DNA from: Oscillatoria sp. FACHB-1407
GTDB taxonomy: Bacteria > Cyanobacteriota > Cyanobacteriia > Elainellales > Elainellaceae
Length of the DNA: 64,000 nt
NCBI RefSeq assembly: GCF_014697545.1
Contig: NZ_JACJSA010000004.1
Location: 248,001 to 312,000, forward strand
Direction of reading: 5' to 3'
The translations under genes and the position numbers were made by a program. The notes beneath the pieces are model-generated. The model searched no databases and had not been told where the DNA came from. It saw only the letters and a program-made list of their open reading frames with translations. Of this stretch, positions 36,997 through 48,465 are shown one piece after another. Positions within the stretch are counted from its first letter, which is position 1. Every line of letters begins with the position of its first letter.

Positions 36997-37479
36997 ATGC
37001 CTGAAGTAACTACCCCCGCTCACCAAGTTGGTGACTTCTTTGTAGACTACGAAGAAAAAGTCTTCCCCGATGTGAAAGCAGAACCGGGGGAAAAAGCACT
37101 CGTGACCTTCCATACGGTCGCTTTTGAAGGATCGATCGGTCTGGTCAACTTGTTGCAAGCTCTGAGACTCCTCCGCAAAGGTTTTGAAACCTCTGTGTTG
37201 CTCTATGGTCCTGGGGTCACTTTAGGTGTGCAACGGGGCTTTCCTAAGATTGGTGACGAAGCTTTTCCGGGACACCAAAACTTCAACAATCAACTCAGCA
37301 AATTTATTGCTGAGGGTGGCAAGGTCTATGCCTGCCGTTTTGCGCTGCAAGCGTTATACGGTCATGGTGAACCTTCCTTGATACCTGGAATCCGTCCTAT
37401 CAGCCCGCTAGATGTGTTGGATTTGATCCTCCTGCATCGTAAAGACAACGCCTTCATTTTGGATACCTGGACGGTGTAG
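36997..37479 (+). CDS. MSMEG_0572/Sll0783-family nitrogen starvation response protein
   Basis: A 160-residue protein of the Sll0783 family, the first gene of the conserved Nit1-type cluster. Seen are [46 protein letters not shown], and [10 protein letters not shown]. In Synechocystis 6803 the homologue has been reported to be needed for polyhydroxybutyrate build-up under nitrogen starvation; the biochemical role is unknown. A GAGGAAG ribosome site precedes the ATG. The NtcA-type promoter lies upstream. A long gap with a repeat insertion separates it from the nitrilase gene. Confidence 0.92.
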
Positions 37480-37769
37480 AAGATTGAAGAGAGGAGAAGA
37501 GAGAAAGAGGAATGAATGGCATTGCTGACATTGGGGATGAATGAGTCGCGAGCAAGATGCTCACACTGGTTGAAACGATTTGCCTAAAAGGAGTGTGAGC
37601 GTCTCGCTCACACCTGTATCAGGAAAGCCATCCCGCCATTCAGCAACGCCGAATAAATCAACCTCTTACTTCGTTTGAATCAGTTTCTTTATCTCTTCTA
37701 GTCTTCATACTTTTTTCCTCTCTCTTCTCTTTTCTTTCTTCCTTTTTCTTTCTTTTTTTTTCTCCTCTT
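37480..37769. other. Gap in the nitrilase cluster: purine tract, MITE, pyrimidine tract
   Basis: After the stop comes an almost pure purine tract (37480-37514), then the roughly 130-bp element copy 3, then an almost pure pyrimidine tract (about 37709-37767) that runs to the nitrilase ATG. The two tracts are roughly complementary in inverted orientation. No purine-rich ribosome site lies before the nitrilase start. Confidence 0.75.
37518..37650 (+). mobile_element. 130-bp MITE-like element, copy 3
   Basis: The complete copy: GGCATTGCTGA at the left end and TCAGCAACGCC at the right end are near-perfect inverted repeats. Internal hairpin-forming blocks are GCGAGCAAGATGCTC and GTGTGAGCGTCTCGCTCAC. 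It is inserted between the first two genes of the nitrilase cluster. Confidence 0.75.
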
Positions 37770-38765
37770 ATGGATTACGCACGTACAGTTCGGGCAGCAG
37801 CGGTACAACTGAGTCCGGTGTTATTTAGTCGAGATGGCACGGTTGAAAAGGTGTTGCAGGCGATCGCCCAGGCAGCACAAGCCGGTGCACAGTTGGTGGT
37901 GTTTCCAGAAACGGTAGTGCCCTATTACCCTTACTTCTCGTTTGTGCAACCTCCAGTGTTAATGGGCAAGGAGCACATGCGCCTGTACGAAGAGGCAGTA
38001 ACCGTTCCGGGTCCGGTAACAGATGCCGTGAGTCGAGCCGCTCGCTCTTATGGGGTGGTCGTGGTGTTGGGGGTAAATGAGCGGGATAACGGTTCGCTAT
38101 ACAACACGCAATTAGTATTCGATGCAGATGGCACGCTGCTGTCGCGCCGCCGCAAGATTACACCCACCTACCATGAGCGTATGGTATGGGGACAGGGAGA
38201 CGGTTCCGGGTTGAAGGTGTTAGATACTGCCGTGGGCAAGTTGGGAGCACTTGCCTGTTGGGAGCATTACAACCCATTGGCACGGTTTGCGTTGATGGCG
38301 CAACATGAACAAATTCATTGTTCTCAGTTTCCTGGTTCAATGGTCGGTCAGATCTTTGCAGATCAGATTGAGGTCACCATTCGCCATCATGCGCTGGAGT
38401 CAGGTTGCTTTGTGGTGAATGCCACTGCATGGCTTTCCCCAGAGCAAGTGCAGCAGATCACCCCCGATGAGAAGTTGCAACGAGTGCTAACAGGTGGATG
38501 TAATACCGCTATTATTAGTCCGGAAGGCACTCATCTCTGCCCTGCGATTACGGAAGGAGAGGGAATGGCGATCGCCGATCTAGATTTCTCCCTCATTACC
38601 AAGCGCAAACGCATGATGGATTCAGTGGGACACTACGCCCGTCCTGACTTGCTGCAATTGCAGCTCAATACAGAGGCGCGATCGCACGTTGTTGGTAGTT
38701 TTGGTGATCCTCTACAAGGTGGAGTGACTCCAGCGATCGAACTTTCGTTGCTGACAGAGGATTGA
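37770..38765 (+). CDS. Nitrilase, Nit6803 type
   Basis: A 331-residue carbon-nitrogen hydrolase, expected to turn a nitrile into an acid plus ammonia. The catalytic triad is visible: Glu47 ([13 protein letters not shown]), Lys129 ([21 protein letters not shown]) and Cys163 ([10 protein letters not shown]). The CWEHYNP block marks the Nit1-cluster nitrilases. The start is the ATG at 37770 after a pyrimidine tract. The stop abuts the start of the radical SAM gene. Its natural substrate in the cluster is presumably a nitrile made or used by the neighbouring enzymes. Confidence 0.93.
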
Positions 38766-38800
38766 AGCTTATCTCTTCTCACAATAAAATCTCCTTAAAC

Positions 38801-39937
38801 ATGGACAAACAGCGCATCATCACAGAATTACAATCGCATGGACTCCGCTTAGTAGAAGAGGTTGGGGCTTCAGGTCGGCGCGGTGGTGCAGGTCCATCAG
38901 ACCATAAGGCGGTGACAGTAGATGGAACCACCGTTATGGTGCCTATCTTCACGGATACAGCCGCCCAGTCGCCTTACACCGCAACGCTTTCGACCACTGA
39001 ACAGGTGATGCTGGAATGTGCCGGAGAGGCGATCGCCCCAATTGAATTTCCCAAGCAACCCAAGTTTTATAGCCTCACTACAGCCGATGGCATTCCCTAT
39101 TGGAAGATTGCACTGCTCCACAGTCACGATGTGCTAGCAACCACCGTGTTGCAGACCTGTATGCGCTATCGTGACCCGGCAACCGCCTGTCAATTTTGCG
39201 CGATCGAAAAGTCGCTGGATGCTGATCGCACGATCGCCCGCAAGACTCCTGCTCAATTGGCAGAAGTCGCAGAAGCCGCTGTCCGACTGGATGGCGTGAA
39301 ACACATGGTGATGACGACAGGCACTCCCAACACGAGCGATCGCGGAGCCGCATATCTGACAGAATGCGCCAGAGCCATTAAAGCCCGTGTGGATCTGCCG
39401 ATTCAGGCGCAGTGTGAACCCCCTGACGATTTTGCCTGGTTTGCCCGGATGAAAGCCGCTGGTATCGACAGTTTAGGAATGCACCTGGAAGCGGTTGATC
39501 CCGATGTGCGCGCCCGAATTATGCCGGGGAAAGCGACTGTACCTGTAGAAATTTACCTGGAGGCGTTCACCGCAGCCGTTGAGGTGTTTGGTTGGGGGCA
39601 GGTCAGCACGTACCTGTTGGCGGGTCTGGGCGACTCGCTGGAAACCCTGACGAGTATGTGCGATCGCCTGATTGATCTGGGTGTTTACCCATTTGTCGTA
39701 CCCTTTGTACCCATTACTAACACTCCACTGGCGCAACAGCCCGCCCCCAGCAGCGATTTCATGTTTGCCCTGTATCAACATGTTGGCGATCGCCTCCGTC
39801 GTTCTGGCATGGCTTCTGCTGATATTAAAGCGGGTTGTGCCAAGTGTGGTGCCTGTTCTGCTCTGTCTACTTTTGAATCCAAGTCTTCTGAATGCACTTC
39901 CACAAACCGTTATGATGCCGCAGCGTTACACGTTTAA
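38801..39937 (+). CDS. MSMEG_0568/Sll0785-family radical SAM protein
   Basis: A 378-residue radical SAM enzyme from the ATG at 38801 (a TTG at 38762 is in frame but less likely). The Cys cluster is Cys120, Cys130 and Cys133, that is C-x9-C-x2-C, which departs from the canonical C-x3-C-x2-C. A barrel with GMHLEAVDPDVRARIMPGK follows, then a C-terminal CAKCGACSAL cluster that may hold a second iron-sulfur centre. It overlaps the acetyltransferase gene. The reaction is unknown. Confidence 0.9.
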   Translation: MDKQRIITELQSHGLRLVEEVGASGRRGGAGPSDHKAVTVDGTTVMVPIFTDTAAQSPYTATLSTTEQVMLECAGEAIAPIEFPKQPKFYSLTTADGIPYWKIALLHSHDVLATTVLQTCMRYRDPATACQFCAIEKSLDADRTIARKTPAQLAEVAEAAVRLDGVKHMVMTTGTPNTSDRGAAYLTECARAIKARVDLPIQAQCEPPDDFAWFARMKAAGIDSLGMHLEAVDPDVRARIMPGKATVPVEIYLEAFTAAVEVFGWGQVSTYLLAGLGDSLETLTSMCDRLIDLGVYPFVVPFVPITNTPLAQQPAPSSDFMFALYQHVGDRLRRSGMASADIKAGCAKCGACSALSTFESKSSECTSTNRYDAAALHV

Positions 39938-40430
39938 ACTTGCCGTTTCTCCCAGTGATGTCAAGGCTTACTTTGCTCTGCGTCGTTCCATCTTCTGCCA
40001 AGAACAGGGGTTGTTTGATGACAGCGACATGGATGAGATTGATCGATACGCTTACCCGATTGTGGCGATCGCCCATGACACCCCCTTTACAACGATGGTG
40101 GTGGGTGTTGTGCGGATTTATGAGCCAGAGCCAGGGTTGTGGTATGGCGGGCGGTTGGGCGTTCATCCCGACTATCGGCGTGTTGGGCAAATTGGCAAAG
40201 GACTGATTTACAAAGCTGTTACCACAGCTAACACCTGGGGATGCCACCGCTTTTTAGCGACCGTGCAGCAGCAAAACGTCCGTTTCTTTCAACGGTGGCA
40301 CTGGCGATCGCTCGAAGAGATTACCGTGTGCGATCGCCCCCACCACCTGATGGAAGCCGATTTGGAATATTATCCCCCCACCAATGAACCGCGCCCCATC
40401 CTGCCTTTTTCGGCAAAAGAAGCTTCATAG
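39912..40430 (+). CDS. MSMEG_0567/Sll0786-family N-acetyltransferase
   Basis: A 172-residue GNAT protein. The frame is open to 39672, but the family start is at MMPQRYTFKLAVSPSDVKAYFALRRSIFCQEQGLF, so the ATG at 39912 (or 39915) is used. The acetyl-CoA motif is YGGRLGVHPDYRRVGQIGKGLI. It overlaps the radical SAM gene by 26 bp. It ends before a gap that holds a tandem repeat and a MITE. Confidence 0.9.
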   Translation: MMPQRYTFKLAVSPSDVKAYFALRRSIFCQEQGLFDDSDMDEIDRYAYPIVAIAHDTPFTTMVVGVVRIYEPEPGLWYGGRLGVHPDYRRVGQIGKGLIYKAVTTANTWGCHRFLATVQQQNVRFFQRWHWRSLEEITVCDRPHHLMEADLEYYPPTNEPRPILPFSAKEAS

Positions 40431-40440
40431 AGGAGGCGAT

Positions 40441-40594
40441 GGTTAATGGTCAATGGTTAATAGTCAATAGTTAATGGTTAATAGTCAATAGTTAATGGTT
40501 AATAGTCAATAGTTAATGGTTAATAGTCAATAGTTGATGGTTAATGGTTGATGGTTGATGGTCAATGGTCAATGGTTGATGGTCAATGGTTAAT
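40441..40594 (+). repeat. STRR heptanucleotide array, 22 copies
   Basis: Twenty-two uninterrupted heptamers of the form (G/A)GT(T/C)(A/G)AT over 154 bp. Much of the array alternates GGTTAAT, AGTCAAT and AGTTAAT. Same family as the array inside the kinase gene at 20502-20578. Short tandemly repeated repetitive sequences of this length are typical of cyanobacterial intergenic DNA. Confidence 0.92.
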
Positions 40595-40602
40595 AATGCT
40601 GA

Positions 40603-40700
40603 TACCGATTTAATGTTTGATTGTGGCAGATCAGTGGGTAGGGGCGTTTCGCGAAAGGCCCTTACGGAATCATGTGCAGCGAAGCCAATTCAAATTGGTA
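40603..40700. mobile_element. 98-bp MITE-like element, copy 2
   Basis: It is in inverted orientation relative to 21560-21657, of the same length, and differs at three positions by my alignment. The ends TACCGATTTAA and the inverted TACCAATTTGA are flanked by TA. Confidence 0.75.
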
Positions 40701-40828
40701 TGAGTGGGAACAGGGGATAGGAAATAGATCGGAAGCATTGAACCTAAGGATGGACTGAAACCTGTTTCTCATCTCTCTGACTCCCTTAACCCCCTCGACT
40801 CCCTACTCCCCCACTCCCTCTATCAAAA

Positions 40829-41779
40829 ATGCTCTCAGCCCTAGTTGCCCAGTTACGCCAATCTCTCGGCATCCTGCACAAACAAGATATCCAAACCGCA
40901 GCAACACGATTGAATTTGGGTTCAAATGCAATTCAACTGGGGGATGACTGTGCCGCAATTCCCGATGGTGACGGCTATCTCCTCTTTGCAGCGGAGGGAA
41001 TGTTACCTTTGCTAGTGGAGTCGGAACCCTGGTTTGCTGGGTGGTGTGGAGTCTTGGTTAGTGTCAGTGATATTTACGCGATGGGGGGGCGTCCGATCGC
41101 CGTTGTTGATGCGTTGTGGAGTACGTCTGCCGAGGCAACACACCCTATCTGGCAAGGCATGACGGCTGCCGCCCAAACCTATAGTGTCCCCATTGTGGGA
41201 GGGCATACCAATTGCCATAGTCCTTACAATGCTTTGTCCGTAGCGATTTTGGGACGCGCCAAGCAGCTTATTACCAGTTTCAACGCCCAACCGGGTGACG
41301 CTCTAATGGTGGCGATCGACTTCCGGGGTAAGCCCCACCCCAAATATCCCTTCTGGGATGCGGCTACCAGAGCTGACCCTGTGCAACTCCGGGCTGATCT
41401 TGCATTGCTGCCAGACCTGGCAGAATCGGGCTTGTGTGATGCGGGGAAAGATATCAGCATGGGTGGCATTGTAGGTACGCTTCTGATGCTGTTGGAAACC
41501 TCTAATTGTGGTGCCGTTTTGAATGTGGATCAGGTGCCCTGTCCTACAGGGCTAGACCTCGATCGCTGGTTAGTTAGCTTTCCCAGTTATGGATTTCTGT
41601 TAAGTGTGCGTGGCGATCGCGTTGCTGAAGTACAAGCCCATTTTCGCCAACGGGATTTAGTGTGTGAAGTGATCGGCACGGTGGAACCAACGCATCAACT
41701 CGAACTGCGATCGCACTCTGAATCTGCTGTGTTTTGGGACTTTACCCAACAACCTCTTACCGGATTTGCACCCCGTTAG
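40829..41779 (+). CDS. AIR-synthase-related protein, Sll0787 family
   Basis: A 316-residue ATP-binding protein of the PurM/SelD/ThiL superfamily. Seen are the N-terminal GDDCAAI, the ATP segment SVSDIYAMGGRPIAVVDALW, GGHTNCHSPYNALSVAILG, and CDAGKDISMGGIVGT. It is the last gene of the Nit1-type cluster here. The start ATG at 40829 follows a pyrimidine-rich leader without a clear ribosome site. The flavin-dependent oxidoreductase and glycosyltransferase seen in some larger versions of the cluster are not present. Confidence 0.9.
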   Translation: MLSALVAQLRQSLGILHKQDIQTAATRLNLGSNAIQLGDDCAAIPDGDGYLLFAAEGMLPLLVESEPWFAGWCGVLVSVSDIYAMGGRPIAVVDALWSTSAEATHPIWQGMTAAAQTYSVPIVGGHTNCHSPYNALSVAILGRAKQLITSFNAQPGDALMVAIDFRGKPHPKYPFWDAATRADPVQLRADLALLPDLAESGLCDAGKDISMGGIVGTLLMLLETSNCGAVLNVDQVPCPTGLDLDRWLVSFPSYGFLLSVRGDRVAEVQAHFRQRDLVCEVIGTVEPTHQLELRSHSESAVFWDFTQQPLTGFAPR

Positions 41780-42530
41780 TGCATTCAAACGGATAGGCGT
41801 GAATTCAATTCGCTAGACACAACACAAAATATTGGGGGTTTTAAAGCTTTTGTCAATCAACTAAAGCGTTCAGTTTTGATTGGCATAGTCGAATAATTCC
41901 GAGATACAGATCTGCTGTTGCTTTAGGATTTGTGCCACTCAAAAAACTCAGCATTTTGAAGTATTTAATCATAGAAACTCTTAAAAAAGATCATGACTTG
42001 TATGAAGATATCATGTGTTTTTTGGAATGGTTTATTATAGCTCAAGTTTCTAATCGGTAAAGGTTTTGGATGACATATTTACGCGATCATTACAGTTTTG
42101 CAGAAGTCAAATTTGACGATGATAAATTGTATCTACTACACTGAATAAGTATGCATTCTACTGTGAGACTTACCCTGAAAAGCTAGCTAATCGTTGGATT
42201 TGATCTGATTGATGGTTGAAGACAGATGAGAGGCTTTGGTTGAGCTTTGAATCCTTTAGACTGATTATAAGCCAGCATCTACACAGTGAGTCACGGCTGT
42301 AATAACCTACTCAATAGCTGAGCCGTCTCTCAACTTGACCTGAAGAACTGTTATTAAAAACTCATTATTAATGACAGATTGTTAATAGCAATTCATCTGT
42401 AAATTGCAGCCATTTGTTAATGGTGAATCATTTTTGATGGCGATCGCTGATTAATACCAATCATGATGGTTGTACTGATAATCATGGCATCTAGTTCAAG
42501 CCTCTAAACCCAAAATTTGGATATTATATT
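41780..42530. other. AT-rich intergenic region before the PP-loop pair
   Basis: No gene or known RNA is seen in this stretch of 750 bp. It is clearly richer in A and T than its neighbours. Two imperfect direct repeats, TTGTTAATAGCAATTCA (42379-42395) and TTGTTAATGGTGAATCA (42414-42430), share 13 of 17 bases and could be an operator or a relic of the STRR family. A 22-codon frame at about 42070 is probably chance. Confidence 0.45.
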
Positions 42531-44327
42531 GTGGCTAATTTTCTTGCTGTTCTTGACCCGAATGGCGATCGCCGTTCAGCCTATATCAAGTCGATTACTC
42601 CACAGATTGCCCCTGTGCCAGGGCTAGTTACGCGATCGCTGGCAAGTCATGATTTAGTCGTGGTTTGGGCAGCAAATCCTCAAGCTCCGATCAGTTGTGA
42701 GAGTGATACAGACGAGATCACAGTGATATGGGGAGATGCAATTCCGCCTGGAGCCTATCAGCGAATCAATGCAGCGGAGCTACAAAGAAAATGGCACGGT
42801 GAGCCATCGACCTATCCTGCCTTTGATGGCTATTATGCTGCACTGACTTATCATGCTCAGCAGGGTATGACGGTTGGTGCCGACCTGTTAGGTTTCTTTC
42901 CGATCTACTATTACAGTTCTCAAGATGTTGTGTTGGTCGGTTCTAGCCCAGAACTGTTTCGCCATCACCCATTGGTGCAACCTCAGTTCAATCCGCAAGC
43001 CTTAGTCAGCATTTTGATGTTGCAATCGCTTATCGGCGGACAAACCCTCTGGAATGGCGTACAGCGACTCGGTGCTGGTAATCTGTTGGTGTGGCACCCT
43101 GAATCATCTCTTCAGGAGGTGCAGCAATATCGCATTCCCTGTTTTCAAGCGCAGGTTGAACAGGCTGGATACGATAAGTTGTCGTTTGATGAACAGCTTG
43201 AGTGTTTGGATGCCGCACTCGACCAAGCGATCGCCCGTCATGCACCCGCGAGCGATCGCTGTAGTTTTCTCTTTTCAGGTGGGTTAGATTCTCGCATGTT
43301 GGCAGGCTACCTGCATCGTCATGGGGCATCCCCGTTGGCAATAACCCTGGGCAACTCAAGCGATTTGGAAATGGAGTGCGCCAAGACAGTAGCCCGTCGT
43401 CTGGGGTTTGAACATCGGCAGGCATCCGTGCCTCTGTCCAAGTATCCGCACTATGCCGATCTGATGGTGCGTTGGGAGCAGTTGGCAACCGGACCCTACG
43501 GAGTGACAGGTGTAGATTGGGATTCGGCTTCCTATTTGCAACAGGCTCCTAACCGTGTGATGACTGGATTTGTGATGGATCGGGTAATTTGTGGAACGCG
43601 GACTGCTTCTGGAGCTTTTGCTGCCAATTTTGCCCGTTCAAACAAGAAAAGCCTCCCGGTGCCTACCTTACAACGCTTGCTGCGTCCTGATATTGCCAAG
43701 TTCATCCCAGAGACAATTGCCTATCTAGAAGAGGATTACAACCGTTATTCTGATTTAGAGTTTCAGCAAGCCTGGAGTTTTAGCCTGTATTATCAAAATC
43801 GTTTTGGGGTCGCCAGTAAGGCATGGCGGTTTTCGTTTGGTGGGTGGCCTATTTTGCCCGTTCTCGATCAGCAACTTTTGGCGATCGCGTCGGTTATGCC
43901 TGCGGCTACGACCAGTCAACGCCGCGCCCAGCGAGCTTTAGTTAAAACGCGATTTCCCGATCTTGCTCGTCTGCCGTTAGATCATAATGCTTTTAATGTC
44001 GAGCCATTGTTGTCAGATGGCGATCGCCACCGTCTTCGCCCATTGCAGACACTGCAACAGCACTGGCACAAAGTGCAACAACGACTGGGGTATGAACGTC
44101 GTTATTACTACCGGATTTTTTCAATTAACAATGCCGGATGGCGCAAGATTCGCCAGCAGGTAGAGCCATATCGTCAGACCGTGAGCGATCTTTTCAACAC
44201 GGATGTCCTGAATGAACTGCTGCCACCGCCTCACAAACCTATCCCCCTTCAATCAGACGTCATTATTGAGTCCTTGCGCTTACAAATGCTGCTATGTTTT
44301 CTGCTGTGGGCAAATAAGAACCTATGA
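42531..44327 (+). CDS. Asparagine-synthetase-like ATP-dependent amidotransferase or cyclase
   Basis: A 598-residue protein of the class-B asparagine synthetase fold, read from a GTG start. The ATP pyrophosphatase loop SGGLDS is at residues 249-254. The N-terminal half resembles the glutaminase domain (TYPAFDGYYAALTY, VGADLLGFFPIYYY). The residue after the start is Ala, not the catalytic Cys2, so it probably cannot use glutamine. Such Cys-less members include lasso-peptide cyclases, beta-lactam synthetases and amidotransferases of surface-sugar clusters. The stop overlaps the next gene by 4 bp. The substrate is unknown. Confidence 0.8.
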   Translation: MANFLAVLDPNGDRRSAYIKSITPQIAPVPGLVTRSLASHDLVVVWAANPQAPISCESDTDEITVIWGDAIPPGAYQRINAAELQRKWHGEPSTYPAFDGYYAALTYHAQQGMTVGADLLGFFPIYYYSSQDVVLVGSSPELFRHHPLVQPQFNPQALVSILMLQSLIGGQTLWNGVQRLGAGNLLVWHPESSLQEVQQYRIPCFQAQVEQAGYDKLSFDEQLECLDAALDQAIARHAPASDRCSFLFSGGLDSRMLAGYLHRHGASPLAITLGNSSDLEMECAKTVARRLGFEHRQASVPLSKYPHYADLMVRWEQLATGPYGVTGVDWDSASYLQQAPNRVMTGFVMDRVICGTRTASGAFAANFARSNKKSLPVPTLQRLLRPDIAKFIPETIAYLEEDYNRYSDLEFQQAWSFSLYYQNRFGVASKAWRFSFGGWPILPVLDQQLLAIASVMPAATTSQRRAQRALVKTRFPDLARLPLDHNAFNVEPLLSDGDRHRLRPLQTLQQHWHKVQQRLGYERRYYYRIFSINNAGWRKIRQQVEPYRQTVSDLFNTDVLNELLPPPHKPIPLQSDVIIESLRLQMLLCFLLWANKNL

Positions 44328-45481
44328 AACCCCAAACTCACCTCTGGATTGAACCTGTCGTTCTAACGGACGGACAGGCAACTATTAGCGCGACGATTGA
44401 GGGGGTTAATCGTCAGCCACGTCAACTCTGGTATCGAGTACCCCAGACGTGCCAATCGTGGCTAACCCAGAGTGCCGATCCGTTTGTGGTAGCCACTGTC
44501 ATGCAGGCTATGATTCGTAAAACAGATCTGGTCGTGCATGGGGAAGTGTCTCCGTCGCTGTTACGAAACCTGGAAGTCTTCCAAAGCATTTGGTCAAGTT
44601 GGGAACCGCGCCGCTACAGCAGGATTGGCATTCACGCCGATGTAGAACGAGAAGCAGACAGTGATATCCCCTCGTTGGAGCGATCGCAACGGGCGATCGC
44701 TGCTTTTTCCGGTGGAGTGGATGCTTGTTTTACGGTGTTGCATCATCGAACCGAGTTAGCCGGTCGCCTAAAACAACCCCTACAGGCAGGGTTGATGGTA
44801 CACGGGTTTGACATCCCGCTAGAAGACACTCCAGGATTTGAGCAGGCAGTGGTCAAGTCCAGGGTTATTCTTTCCAGTCGCAACGTGGATTTGATTCCCA
44901 TGGCGACTAATTTTCGTCAGGTACTCCAAACTCCCTGGGAAGATGGGTTTGGAGCCGCGATCGCCTCCTGTCTGATGCTGCTGCAACGGCGATTTAGTGC
45001 TGGATTAATCGGCAGTTCTTATGCCTACAGCGATCTCATTTTTCCTTGCGGATCAACCCCTCTGACCGATCCATTGCTATCCAACCAGGCCTTTTCCTGT
45101 GTCCATGATGGGGCTCAATTTACCCGATTAGAAAAACTGCAAGCCTTGTTGGCGTGGGATGAGGCAATGCAGTATCTGAGAGTGTGCTGGCAAGGTAAAC
45201 AGCGCGATCGCAATTGTGGGCAATGCGAGAAGTGTGTGCGTAATTTGCTGCTGTTTATGATTCTCGGCGTGCGAAAACCTGCCTGTTTTAGTCAAACCTT
45301 AAAGCCACAGCAGATTGTTGGTGTGCGAGTCCGGGGACGACAACTGAAAATCTTGCAAGCTGTTCTAAAACAAGCACAACAGCAAGGCATCGGATCACAC
45401 TATGTTCAAGCGTTAAAGCTGTGCATTCTCAAAAATCAAATCATTGAAGCTACACGCTCGGTGGTTAAACCGACAGTGTGA
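44324..45481 (+). CDS. PP-loop ATPase, QueC-like, with Cys cluster
   Basis: A 385-residue protein. A PP-loop SGGVDA lies at residues 129-134 (IAAFSGGVDACFTVL), and a C-terminal NCGQCEKCVRNLL resembles the zinc site of QueC-type enzymes. The first 120 residues are an added domain of unknown fold. It should adenylate a substrate and pass on a nitrogen or sulfur group. Its overlap with the asparagine-synthetase-like gene shows the two are made together and probably act on the same molecule. The function is unknown. Confidence 0.75.
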   Translation: MKPQTHLWIEPVVLTDGQATISATIEGVNRQPRQLWYRVPQTCQSWLTQSADPFVVATVMQAMIRKTDLVVHGEVSPSLLRNLEVFQSIWSSWEPRRYSRIGIHADVEREADSDIPSLERSQRAIAAFSGGVDACFTVLHHRTELAGRLKQPLQAGLMVHGFDIPLEDTPGFEQAVVKSRVILSSRNVDLIPMATNFRQVLQTPWEDGFGAAIASCLMLLQRRFSAGLIGSSYAYSDLIFPCGSTPLTDPLLSNQAFSCVHDGAQFTRLEKLQALLAWDEAMQYLRVCWQGKQRDRNCGQCEKCVRNLLLFMILGVRKPACFSQTLKPQQIVGVRVRGRQLKILQAVLKQAQQQGIGSHYVQALKLCILKNQIIEATRSVVKPTV

Positions 45482-45505
45482 AACCCATAACAGTGTGAAA
45501 CCTGT

Positions 45506-45525
45506 AGAAACTGTCGAGACAGTTT
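45506..45525 (+). terminator. Stem-loop after the PP-loop gene pair
   Basis: AGAAACTGTC and its reverse complement meet around GA, 25 bp after the stop, giving a 9-10-bp stem followed by TATAG. The core ACTGTCGAGACAGT (45510-45523) is the palindrome of the repeat elements at 21107 and 32728, so it may be a repeat reused as a terminator. Confidence 0.45.
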
Positions 45526-45616
45526 CTATAGCCGGCAAAACCCGCCCCTACCAAATACCGAACTTATTTAATTTCCATTCCTAAGCTTGCTGACCAAAGC
45601 TACATAGTGCCTCATC

Positions 45617-45715
45617 AGAAAAGTTAGGGAGGTACAGTGACCCCAACCTTAACTTTTTGGGGGAAAAGTCCTTAACTTTTCCATATCGAAAAGACAAGGG
45701 GCAAATCCTATAAAT
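45617..45715 (+). promoter_or_regulatory. Conserved leader-like element, copy 2
   Basis: It matches 5690-5785 over about 95 bp. Here the repeats are clear: AAAAGTTAGG at the left, then CCTTAACTTTT at 45647, and CCTTAACTTTT again at 45670, 23 bp later. It ends about 35 bp before the start of the gene at 45748, much closer than copy 1 is to its gene. Confidence 0.5.
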
Positions 45716-45747
45716 GGAGTATCGAAGTCAACCACCCCAAGACCCCC

Positions 45748-46023
45748 ATGAAACGCTACTCCGAAATCTCTCTTGAAACCGGGTCTACTCACTCTTCTGA
45801 ATGGACACCCGGTATTCAGGAAAGCGCACTAGAGCCAACGATGGCAACCTGTCCATCCTCCAGTGCAACCGGAAAAGGATTAACTGTCATCAGCACTACT
45901 GTCATGGTGATGTTACTACTCCTGAGCGTATCGGCGGTTTTGTGGGGAACTGTCAAACTCTCACAAAGTGTTGCCCAACTCACCCAATTTGCGGTGCAAG
46001 AAGCAATGCAATCCAATCCTTAA
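45748..46023 (+). CDS. Hypothetical single-pass membrane protein
   Basis: A 91-residue protein. A polar N-terminus rich in Ser and Thr precedes one hydrophobic helix at about residues 46-67 (VISTTVMVMLLLLSVSAVLWG) and a short amphipathic tail. No family is recognised. The conserved leader element lies directly upstream, and the two 67-residue YRG proteins follow on the same strand. Confidence 0.55.
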   Translation: MKRYSEISLETGSTHSSEWTPGIQESALEPTMATCPSSSATGKGLTVISTTVMVMLLLLSVSAVLWGTVKLSQSVAQLTQFAVQEAMQSNP

Positions 46024-46074
46024 ATAACTCGTCTTTTCACCATAGCTCTCTCACTTATATCAGGAGTCATTCAT

Positions 46075-46278
46075 ATGCAACTGAGATACCGTGGTCAAAC
46101 CTACAGCTACCCTTACACTGAGCAAGTTCCAGTTTCTAACATTCAAGCTCTTCGTATCTATCGTGGTGTTAGAACAGATATTGCTCCTGTCACTCCCGAA
46201 GTAACTGTTCCTGAGGTGACCTCGTTACGCTATCGCGGTATTTACTATCTCCGGACTCTAACTCCAGCATTCAATTAA
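46075..46278 (+). CDS. DUF4278-like YRG-repeat protein, copy 1
   Basis: A 67-residue protein with three YRG motifs: LRYRGQTY at residues 3-10, IYRGV near 28 and LRYRGIYY near 51. This is the pattern of cyanobacterial DUF4278 proteins. A clear CAGGAGT ribosome site precedes the ATG. It is about two thirds identical to the next gene, so the pair arose by tandem duplication. The function is unknown. Confidence 0.75.
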   Translation: MQLRYRGQTYSYPYTEQVPVSNIQALRIYRGVRTDIAPVTPEVTVPEVTSLRYRGIYYLRTLTPAFN

Positions 46279-46367
46279 GTTTTTCTACCAAGCTTGTTTA
46301 TCCAGTTCATCTAAAACTCAAGACTCACTTACGGATTCACCTCACACTTACACAGGAGTTACTCATC

Positions 46368-46571
46368 ATGCAACTACACTATCGTGGTCAAATCTACAGC
46401 TATCCTTACACTGAGCAAACTCAAGTTTCTACTTTTCAACCACTTTGCATCTACCGTGGTGTTAAGACCAGTGCTACTCCTGTTACTCCCACACCAACAG
46501 TTTCTAGTGTAACTCCCCTGCGCTATCGTGGTATTCCCTATCTGCCAACTCTAGTGGCACAGTTCAACTAA
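46368..46571 (+). CDS. DUF4278-like YRG-repeat protein, copy 2
   Basis: A 67-residue paralogue of the gene before it, with LHYRGQIY, IYRGV and LRYRGIPY. It has its own CAGGAGT ribosome site at the same spacing, and the leaders of the two genes are also alike (CACTTAYA.CAGGAGT), so the duplication included the 5' region. It is followed by a strong terminator. Confidence 0.75.
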   Translation: MQLHYRGQIYSYPYTEQTQVSTFQPLCIYRGVKTSATPVTPTPTVSSVTPLRYRGIPYLPTLVAQFN

Positions 46572-46598
46572 ATTAATTCCATTGTTTTTAGATTGATA

Positions 46599-46691
46599 TA
46601 TAGCCGTAGCCACCAGTGTTAGGACAATTCAAAGCCCATGATGAATAAGGGGCTTAAGCCCCTTGCCCTAACCAGGTTGAATACAGCTATA
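46599..46691. mobile_element. 93-bp MITE-like element with TATAGCYGTA ends
   Basis: TATAGCCGTA at the left end and TACAGCTATA at the right end are inverted repeats with one mismatch. The centre holds the palindrome AAGGGGCTTAAGCCCCTT (46647-46664). A fragment of the left end, in reverse orientation, is found at 21664-21680. No coding capacity. Confidence 0.5.
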
Positions 46692-46708
46692 GCAATCGTT
46701 GTGGCGGC

Positions 46709-46758
46709 AATAGCGTTTTGAAATCTTGTAGGATACAGGTTTCAAAACGCTATTTTTA
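46709..46758 (+). terminator. Strong Rho-independent terminator
   Basis: AATAGCGTTTTGAAA (46709-46723) pairs perfectly with TTTCAAAACGCTATT and is followed by TTT; the loop is 16 nt. It ends the transcription unit of the YRG proteins. Confidence 0.85.
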
Positions 46759-47013
46759 TAGCTTTGATCAGAAGGCTTAAGGCAAAGGCAAATGGCTCAA
46801 ACCCTGATGCTGGGAAAGCTTCCTGACTCGCCTCCGCCCCATCGTATGTGGCTACGGTTATACAGCGGCACTCCTTGGGTGACATACGGGGTGTAGGCGT
46901 GGAACCCTACGCAAGGGGACATCCCCCTTGGACTGAACCAACCTGTACACCGCTGTCTAGCTACAGATAAAGATTTTGGTGGTTGAAACCACTGCTAAAT
47001 CAAGGGTTCGTAC

Positions 47014-48465
47014 TTAAGGGGCGATCGCCAAATGTGTTTTGAAATATTGTCGATATAACTCACAACTGGGCACTACGTAGTTGCCACGCAGAGAAACTAA
47101 CCCCATGCTGTGTAACTTAAATGCCAGGAGTTGTTCTAGCTCAACTGGCTCTGACGTCTGGATGACCCGCTCAAAGGCAGTTCTCAAGGGGGGATGTTCT
47201 TGCAAGTTGCGCAGATGCCGATGCAAGTGATCCCGGTAGATTCCAGCATGGGTGGCAGCGGTTTCTAGAAGCTGAGCCAGGGTTAACTCTTGCTGAGCCA
47301 GGTGATAGAAAGCGCGTCGTAGCAAATAGGGGTGTCCTGAAACAAGCTGCATCAACTCAGCTAACTCCGATTGAGATAGTGTTAACCCGTGACGTTGTGC
47401 TAGATCAGCCACCTGTTCTGAGGTAAATTCCTTTAGCTCGATCGCCACTCCCACATTGAAGGGAGACTTGTTGATATCGAGCGGTAGATAGACCTCTGTT
47501 GAGTGTACGATCACTAACCGAACCTGTTGCCAGAGTGGATTGCCGCTGTCTCCGTAAGCCGATTCCTCATACCAGGAGCGCAACAGAGCAAAGAAGTCAT
47601 CGGCGATTTCCGGATGGGAAAACACCTCATCCACCTGATCGAGCGCAATGATCAGAGGGCCCTGGATCTCAGACAAAACACAGTCTTCAAAGTAAGCCGT
47701 GCAGTTGCTTTTACTGCCAAAGGTGGCACTCCAGAAGTCATCAACCCGGTTTGAGAGTTGTAATTTGCGGGTGATAGCAGCACAAAACCAGCGTAAAAAG
47801 CGATCAATGTCAACAAACACCGCGCTATCCGCCTGCTGTAAACTCAGGGCTACGGTCGCAACGGTTTTGGTTGGGTCTGAGGCAAAGGGATGTTGTTTGG
47901 CATGAGCCAAAATCCGAACCATGAGGGACGTTTTGCCCATCTGGGTAGGGGCTTTGATGCGGATCAGGGCACCGGGGTGGGTGATTTCTTCGTAGCAGTG
48001 GGTTTCAATTGGGGGGCGATCGATGTAAAACTTTGAGTCGAGAGGCACTAGTCCGACGGGTGACTCTAACTCAGGCACTGGGGGGGTAAGCAACTGCGCT
48101 TCAACTGGCGCATCCTCAGTCGTGGCTTTGCGGGTTAGCACCGCCACAAGATTAGTCTTGCTGACCTTTTCCCCCAGGCTGGACGAGAGTAACTGCCACA
48201 GAGTGGGGCCAACATCATGTTTAATATATTCGGGCGTATACCCATTTTCTTCGGCGATCGCATCGTACTTATACCCCTGCCAAACCCCTTTTAAGACAGC
48301 TACCTCAATGGTTTTAAGATGCCTGGAGGCTTTGGCAAACACAGCCGCATCAGCTACGTTGAGAGCGACTTCAAAGGATATGGAGTGATGTGTGGCCGTT
48401 TCTCCTTTAGGATAATCGCCATCCCTCTCTCGCATGGGTCTAAATTGGGTTACTACAGTTTGCAT
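47014..48465 (-). CDS. vMAP-type HTH plus AAA-like ATPase (STAND/AAA_35 family)
   Basis: A 483-residue protein. Residues about 30-112 match the vWA-MoxR-associated (vMAP) N-terminal winged-HTH domain: [23 protein letters not shown], then [24 protein letters not shown]. Then comes an AAA-like ATPase with Walker [10 protein letters not shown] (Lys178) and Walker [13 protein letters not shown]. The start at 48465 is provisional, because the conserved part begins near residue 30. vMAP domains are known from ternary biological conflict systems. It is divergent from a second AAA-like gene, with 42 bp between the starts. A sensor or switch role in defence is inferred. Confidence 0.8.

Follow-up and report, generated by a model that had tools for sequence, protein, structure and literature searches.

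What do two ATP-dependent enzymes encoded by overlapping genes do together in a cyanobacterium, and do the small proteins encoded next to them serve as their substrates? The question is raised by a stretch of 64,000 nucleotides (hereafter the window) in the 8.1-Mb genome of Oscillatoria sp. FACHB-1407 (contig NZ_JACJSA010000004.1, positions 248,001 to 312,000; contig C4 of genome G000 in our numbering, where L numbers denote loci). The two genes encode an AsnB-like (asparagine-synthetase-like) protein and a QueC-like PP-loop protein of an unnamed family. The pair is conserved in three phyla, and QueC-like genes often lie among genes for exopolysaccharide synthesis. The explanation we favour, with about even confidence, is that the window pair is one copy, displaced, of a module that tailors exopolysaccharides; the QueC-like enzyme of this module would adenylate a sugar-linked carboxylate and form an amide. 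The features of the pair are as follows.

42531..44327, + strand: AsnB-like protein, 598 aa, with a glutamine amidotransferase-like domain without the nucleophilic Cys and a PP-loop synthetase domain (Pfam and NCBIfam profiles, alignment, Foldseek)
43275..43295, + strand: PP-loop SGGLDSR of the AsnB-like protein, residues 249-255, kept in 11 aligned sequences
44324..45481, + strand: QueC-like PP-loop protein, 385 aa, unnamed family (profiles, alignment, AlphaFold2; best fold match QatC)
44708..44725, + strand: PP-loop SGGVDA of the QueC-like protein, residues 129-134
44801..44818, + strand: family-specific HGFDIP motif of the QueC-like protein, residues 160-165, in 28 of 29 sequences
45185..45235, + strand: zinc motif C-x9-C-x2-C-x2-C of the QueC-like protein, residues 288-304, in 29 of 29 sequences

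The original prediction, made from the letters of the window, had described a Cys-less AsnB-like gene and a QueC-like PP-loop gene overlapping by 4 bp, and its open reading frames (ORFs), strands and coordinates are correct. The overlap of the asnB-like stop and the queC-like start is ATGA (44324-44327), and the asnB-like gene starts with GTG, giving the N-terminus (M/V)AN. Both frames are far above chance: many relatives, including some from other phyla, are about 40-50% identical to them along almost the whole length.

Distribution and gene neighbourhoods of the pair

We scanned one genome per species, and the QueC-like protein had 31 relatives there, which range from cyanobacteria to Actinomycetota. 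The neighbours of these relatives were sorted by clustering and profile searches, and 44 QueC-like loci were scored. An AsnB-like gene lies at most 500 bp from the QueC-like gene at 12 of the 44 loci, in Cyanobacteriota, Chloroflexota and Planctomycetota, and the planctomycete pair (L012) shows the same 4-bp overlap. The idea that the two PP-loop enzymes act as a unit is thus borne out by a pair conserved across three phyla.

The QueC-like family occurs in 18 of the 390 genomes of the class and in 7 of 60 related genomes, whereas strong AsnB-like matches were found in 3 of the 390. Since all three also encode the QueC-like protein, the AsnB-like gene appears to be largely a partner of a subset of QueC-like genes. 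Plasmids gave no AsnB-like match. The QueC-like clade was found in cyanobacteria, Planctomycetota, Chloroflexota, Pseudomonadota, Actinomycetota, Acidobacteriota and others. In the trees, both window genes fall inside a clade that is mostly cyanobacterial and in whose members the operon is found: the AsnB-like protein clusters with copies of Okeania and genome G288 (support 99/97), and the QueC-like protein lies within a set of 16 sequences (96/90), where its nearest relatives are less well supported. Okeania sp. SIO2C9 (L011:1767-7452) has three tandem QueC-like paralogues and a 123-aa fragment on the opposite strand, which suggests an expansion of the family.

A polysaccharide pyruvyl transferase gene (PF04230) was found within 5 kb at 23 of the 44 loci, and PF04230 or a family 2 glycosyltransferase (GT2) at 26, with the qualification that the profiles used for the neighbours drew in part on the same loci and are hence not fully independent. 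Representatives of the neighbours were identified with Pfam and NCBIfam. The HpsE glycosyltransferase (GT2) scores 490 bits against a cut-off of 300, matches to PF04230 reach 1e-31, and an S-adenosylmethionine (SAM) methyltransferase also adjoins. The loci of Planctomycetota and Chloroflexota have ATP-binding cassette polysaccharide exporters of the Wzm/Wzt type and further glycosyltransferases. Only two PF04230 genes exist in the 8.1 Mb of the Oscillatoria genome, one of them at a second copy of the module. Therefore, if other genomes are alike, proximity within 5 kb is expected by chance at well under 1% per locus. RefSeq-annotated plasmid records had no part in building the profiles; in those of Gloeothece PCC 7822 and PCC 7424, a "polysaccharide pyruvyl transferase family protein" is directly upstream of the QueC-like gene, labelled "hypothetical" as members of the family are in RefSeq, and the record of Azospirillum brasilense agrees with this picture.

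The order hpsE - pyruvyl transferase - asnB-like - queC-like - methyltransferase is found in L001, in L004 and in the second, complete copy of the Oscillatoria genome (contig C20, L034/L035), and most of it also in L005, L006, L007 and L092. In L005, htpG, hpsA and hpsB come after the module genes, and clusters of htpG and hpsA as in L005 also flank the QueC-like gene in L002, L007 and L045. In cyanobacteria the module sometimes lies within the hps (hormogonium polysaccharide) locus. The neighbourhoods resemble this locus in that HpsE, HpsA and HpsB are adjacent in several relatives and that, for Phormidium, clpB and htpG were reported as part of the hps cluster (PMC4284469). They differ in that the hps genes listed in the parts of the published descriptions available to us include no QueC-like gene (PMC4284469, PMC10581220), and the window copy is not part of an hps locus.

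In Azospirillum brasilense (L121:6827-9212), a pyruvyl transferase and a QueC-like gene form an apparent two-gene unit, which is a simple system for testing function. The QueC-like genes of Pragia (L026:6418-15174) and Kitasatospora (L023:7786-11188) share neighbour clusters 34, 35 and 13, which include, at Pragia, a cupin and a UDP-sugar dehydrogenase and, at Kitasatospora, a glyoxalase-domain protein; these neighbours suggest an unusual sugar or natural product. Could the module then act in a pathway for a small molecule or a lipid-linked glycoconjugate (such an unusual sugar or natural product) and not on bulk exopolysaccharide? The nonribosomal peptide synthetase (NRPS) genes beside the Gloeothece copies would fit, as would the genes similar to dihydrodipicolinate synthase and isopropylmalate synthase, the cupin and the UDP-sugar dehydrogenase at Pragia, and the Azospirillum unit, which has no glycosyltransferases. 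We nevertheless find this unlikely, because in the cyanobacterial clade that holds the window copy the module is associated with hpsE and the hps locus.

The two enzymes compared with known families

The QueC-like protein scores 14.2 bits with the Pfam QueC profile, below the cut-off of 22. It carries the motifs SGGVD and CWQGKQRDRNCGQCEKC, and among 29 sequences of its family SGGxD is kept in 28 and the zinc motif C(x7-12)CxxCxxC in all. The PP-loop, the zinc site C-x(7-12)-C-x2-C-x2-C and the superfamily fold are shared with QueC (7-cyano-7-deazaguanine synthase; PF06508, TIGR00364). Unlike QueC, the protein is about 150 residues longer and its family lacks the three catalytic motifs YxQxHxxE, VPxRN and YPDC (definitions from PMC13329287; each 0 of 29), whereas the QueC of E. 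coli and that of the Oscillatoria genome, used as controls, carry all three. HGFDIP is present in 28 of the 29 sequences and in neither control. The family adjoins polysaccharide genes and not queD or queE, none of which was seen among the annotated neighbours of the QueC-like loci, although not every neighbour was annotated. A duplicate of the queuosine pathway was rejected, since a canonical QueC is encoded elsewhere in the genome, where a QueE-like radical-SAM gene lies a short way upstream of it.

The AlphaFold2 model of the QueC-like protein (predicted local distance difference test, pLDDT, 93.7) has QatC as its top Foldseek match (PDB 9y02, 9y02_B; E 5e-6, probability 1.00, template modelling (TM) score 0.48). 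Cap9 is a poorer match, and phage QueC models match too. Membership of the superfamily is based on motifs and fold, because aligning the family profile directly with two QueC sequences gave a weak match (probability 16-19%); an hmmsearch of the family profile against the PDB returned spurious or weak matches only. With QatC, a component of the qatABCD anti-phage system (PDB 9y02), the protein shares a QueC core with an N-terminal extension and a length of about 400 aa. In contrast to QatC, its family lacks the zinc variant C(x)19CGxCxxRR (0 of 29) and no defence neighbours were recognised. PADLOC was run on the two window proteins and on five relatives without a match, and an anti-phage system was rejected on this basis. 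The N-acetyl sugar amidotransferases of the WbpG type are PP-loop enzymes of the same superfamily, and WbpG acts in surface-sugar biosynthesis (PMC13329287, PMC10607449), but the motif CxxC(x)6CxC is found in 0 of the 29 sequences and the partner here is a pyruvyl transferase. Judging from the motifs tested and the modelled fold, the protein belongs to the QueC superfamily but is distinct from QueC, QatC and WbpG.

In this superfamily, ATP is used to adenylate a carboxylate, and the adenylate is attacked by a nitrogen nucleophile, which in QueC is ammonia and in Cap9 an N-terminal amine (PMC13279940). By analogy, we infer that the QueC-like family may use the same adenylation chemistry. The fold match to QatC also brings up the idea that the protein puts a deazaguanine on the N-terminus of a partner, as Cap9 does and as was proposed for QatC, its substrates being the small proteins encoded downstream or some other protein, in defence or regulation. 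This seems very unlikely given the PADLOC result, the absence of the QatC zinc pattern, the lack of linkage of the small proteins (see below) and the polysaccharide genes in the neighbourhood.

The AsnB-like protein matches Pfam Asn_synthase (1.7e-8) and NCBIfam asn_synth_AEB (1e-19), yet it is far under the cut-off of the latter and of every other NCBIfam profile. It has the two-domain AsnB architecture and PP-loop of AsnB, the XrtA-system amidotransferase and the beta-lactam and carbapenam synthetases, and the top Foldseek matches of its model (pLDDT 72.7; local details not used) are TsnB9, beta-lactam synthetase and AsnB. Like the lactam synthetases, which have no Cys1, it lacks the N-terminal Cys nucleophile (position 2), absent in all 11 sequences, i.e. 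the window protein and 10 aligned relatives. Glutamine-dependent asparagine synthetases have a conserved catalytic Lys in the synthetase domain, and enzymes of the beta-lactam synthetase type have a catalytic Tyr348. Unlike these enzymes and the XrtA-system amidotransferase, the 11 sequences have no invariant Lys, the local alignment there being uncertain, and the position aligned to Tyr348 is Y, F, L or H (F in the window protein). Because of these two features, the synthetase site of the family is not conserved. The protein probably binds ATP, on the evidence of its sequence; a role as a standard glutamine-dependent amide synthetase is unlikely, given that the glutaminase Cys is missing and no synthetase Lys is conserved. 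Enzymes similar to asparagine synthetase are chemically versatile, and one of them forms peptide C-terminal nitriles from glutamine-derived ammonia (PMC13060819).

These observations bear on which nucleophile the module would use. The QueC-like enzyme might couple the carboxylate to an amine in place of ammonia: an amino sugar, an amino acid or a polyamine, supplied or activated by the AsnB-like protein. The product would be an aminoacylated or cross-linked polysaccharide. The missing glutaminase Cys, the amine nucleophile of the superfamily relative Cap9 (PMC13279940) and the fold matches to TsnB9 and Cys-less lactam synthetases argue for it, while the lack of conservation of the synthetase site argues against it, and the NRPS genes near the Gloeothece copies concern two loci only. 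We regard this amine coupling as possible but rather doubtful.

Genes on either side of the pair

Downstream of the pair, the window has the following features.

45502..45551, + strand: hairpin with a 13-bp stem and no T run, then a dispersed genomic repeat, between the enzyme pair and the small genes
45748..46023, + strand: ORF of 91 aa with one transmembrane helix, outside the module, homologue not found at other loci
46075..46278, + strand: DUF4278 protein 1, outside the module
46368..46571, + strand: DUF4278 protein 2, outside the module

The one-helix peptide and the two YRG proteins are present on the same strand as predicted. The latter, of 67 aa each with 45 of 67 residues identical, belong to DUF4278 (PF14105, Pfam), which forms the N-terminal part of the glutamine-synthetase inactivating factor IF17 (PMC6316151). 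A glutamine riboswitch ahead of the DUF4278 genes was rejected, as nothing was above the Rfam threshold. The guess that the small proteins are substrates of the enzymes, in the manner of the maturation of ribosomally synthesised and post-translationally modified peptides, fails because 55 of 60 related genomes encode DUF4278 proteins, against 7 of 60 with the QueC-like family, and because no homologue of the DUF4278 proteins or of the 91-aa ORF was found at the other 46 loci searched. The original prediction had itself named, as outcomes that would refute it, conserved neighbours from a pathway such as that of exopolysaccharides and small genes that never accompany the enzymes; for its part on the small proteins, these outcomes were observed at the other loci. 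The small genes are most likely neighbours of the pair by chance.

The predicted hairpin (45502-45531) was found between the two groups of genes. It abuts the repeat GCCGGCAAAACCCGCCCCTAC (45531-45551), which has 34 matches in the genome at no more than 2 mismatches, against 0 for a reversed-pattern control. Copies of the repeat are often GACGGC/GACAGC variants and some are in facing pairs. Further on, an intergenic inverted repeat at 46710-46754 has a sub-threshold match to Rfam mir-7918 (27.7 bits, cut-off 80), which we take as chance.

Upstream, positions 36997-41779 hold a known type of cluster, the Nit1C-type nitrogen-starvation cluster, with genes for an MSMEG_0572 family protein, the Nit6803 nitrilase, the MSMEG_0568 radical SAM protein, the MSMEG_0567 GNAT protein and an sll0787 AIR synthase-like protein. 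The adjacency, the confirmed Nit6803 nitrilase and the fact that canonical QueC makes a nitrile (PMC13329287) might suggest that the pair belongs with this cluster and makes a nitrile for the nitrilase. However, an AT-rich gap of 750 bp (35% GC) separates them and no Nit1C homologue occurs at any other QueC-like locus examined, so that the association is not conserved and the idea is extremely improbable.

A proposed module for tailoring exopolysaccharides

The context and the fold of the module are well supported, and for its reaction and substrate we put forward a hypothesis. Of the substrates guessed originally, a peptide, a surface sugar and a nucleobase, the conserved polysaccharide neighbours speak strongly for the surface sugar. 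The nucleobase is unlikely, because a canonical QueC is encoded separately in the genome and the QueC-like family lacks the QueC catalytic motifs. The QueC-like enzyme would activate, by ATP-dependent adenylation, a carboxylate of a sugar polymer or of a precursor of it; the likeliest candidates are a pyruvyl ketal placed by the PF04230 neighbour and a uronic acid. Attack of a nitrogen nucleophile would then yield an amide. The AsnB-like protein would be an accessory of some lineages only, which more likely binds ATP and helps to position the substrate or the amine. If the window copy has kept its function, its substrates may be polymers whose synthesis genes lie in other parts of the genome.

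Several observations weigh against this explanation. At 18 of the 44 QueC-like loci, no scored polysaccharide neighbour lies within 5 kb; about a third of these 18 are divergent paralogues. The flanks of the window pair (41701-47100) contain no glycosyltransferase, PF04230 pyruvyl transferase or methyltransferase gene and no remnants of these; since relics of the missing genes are absent, the window copy looks like a pair that became separated from its operon. The genome also has a third AsnB-like copy without a QueC-like partner (L090:8732-10576, contig C6 of G000, minus strand). Finally, a PF04230 neighbour does not prove a pyruvyl ketal, and the chemistry proposed is an extrapolation by analogy. 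As side observations, the pairs at L014:8023-11302 and L015:981-4130 are, as in the window, without scored polysaccharide neighbours, and the lone AsnB-like copy is near a Rieske oxygenase, a flavin adenine dinucleotide (FAD)/Rieske oxidoreductase and a methyltransferase.

A 2026 survey of the QueC superfamily was built on PF06508 (PMC13329287), and the clade may have been missed there because the QueC-like protein is under the cut-off of that profile. In its boldest form, our proposal is that this unnamed clade works with pyruvyl transferases to convert the carboxylate of a pyruvyl ketal or uronate to an amide, or to a nitrile by two-step chemistry as in QueC, as a decoration that cancels charge on the exopolysaccharide. 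We hold this version to be speculative and doubtful, and we know of no such decoration described so far. The partnership with pyruvyl transferases gives the family a concrete and testable function, the nitrogen-bearing modification of an acidic exopolysaccharide. If true, such a modification would bear on the charge of the polymer, on cation binding and, through the link with hps, on gliding motility.

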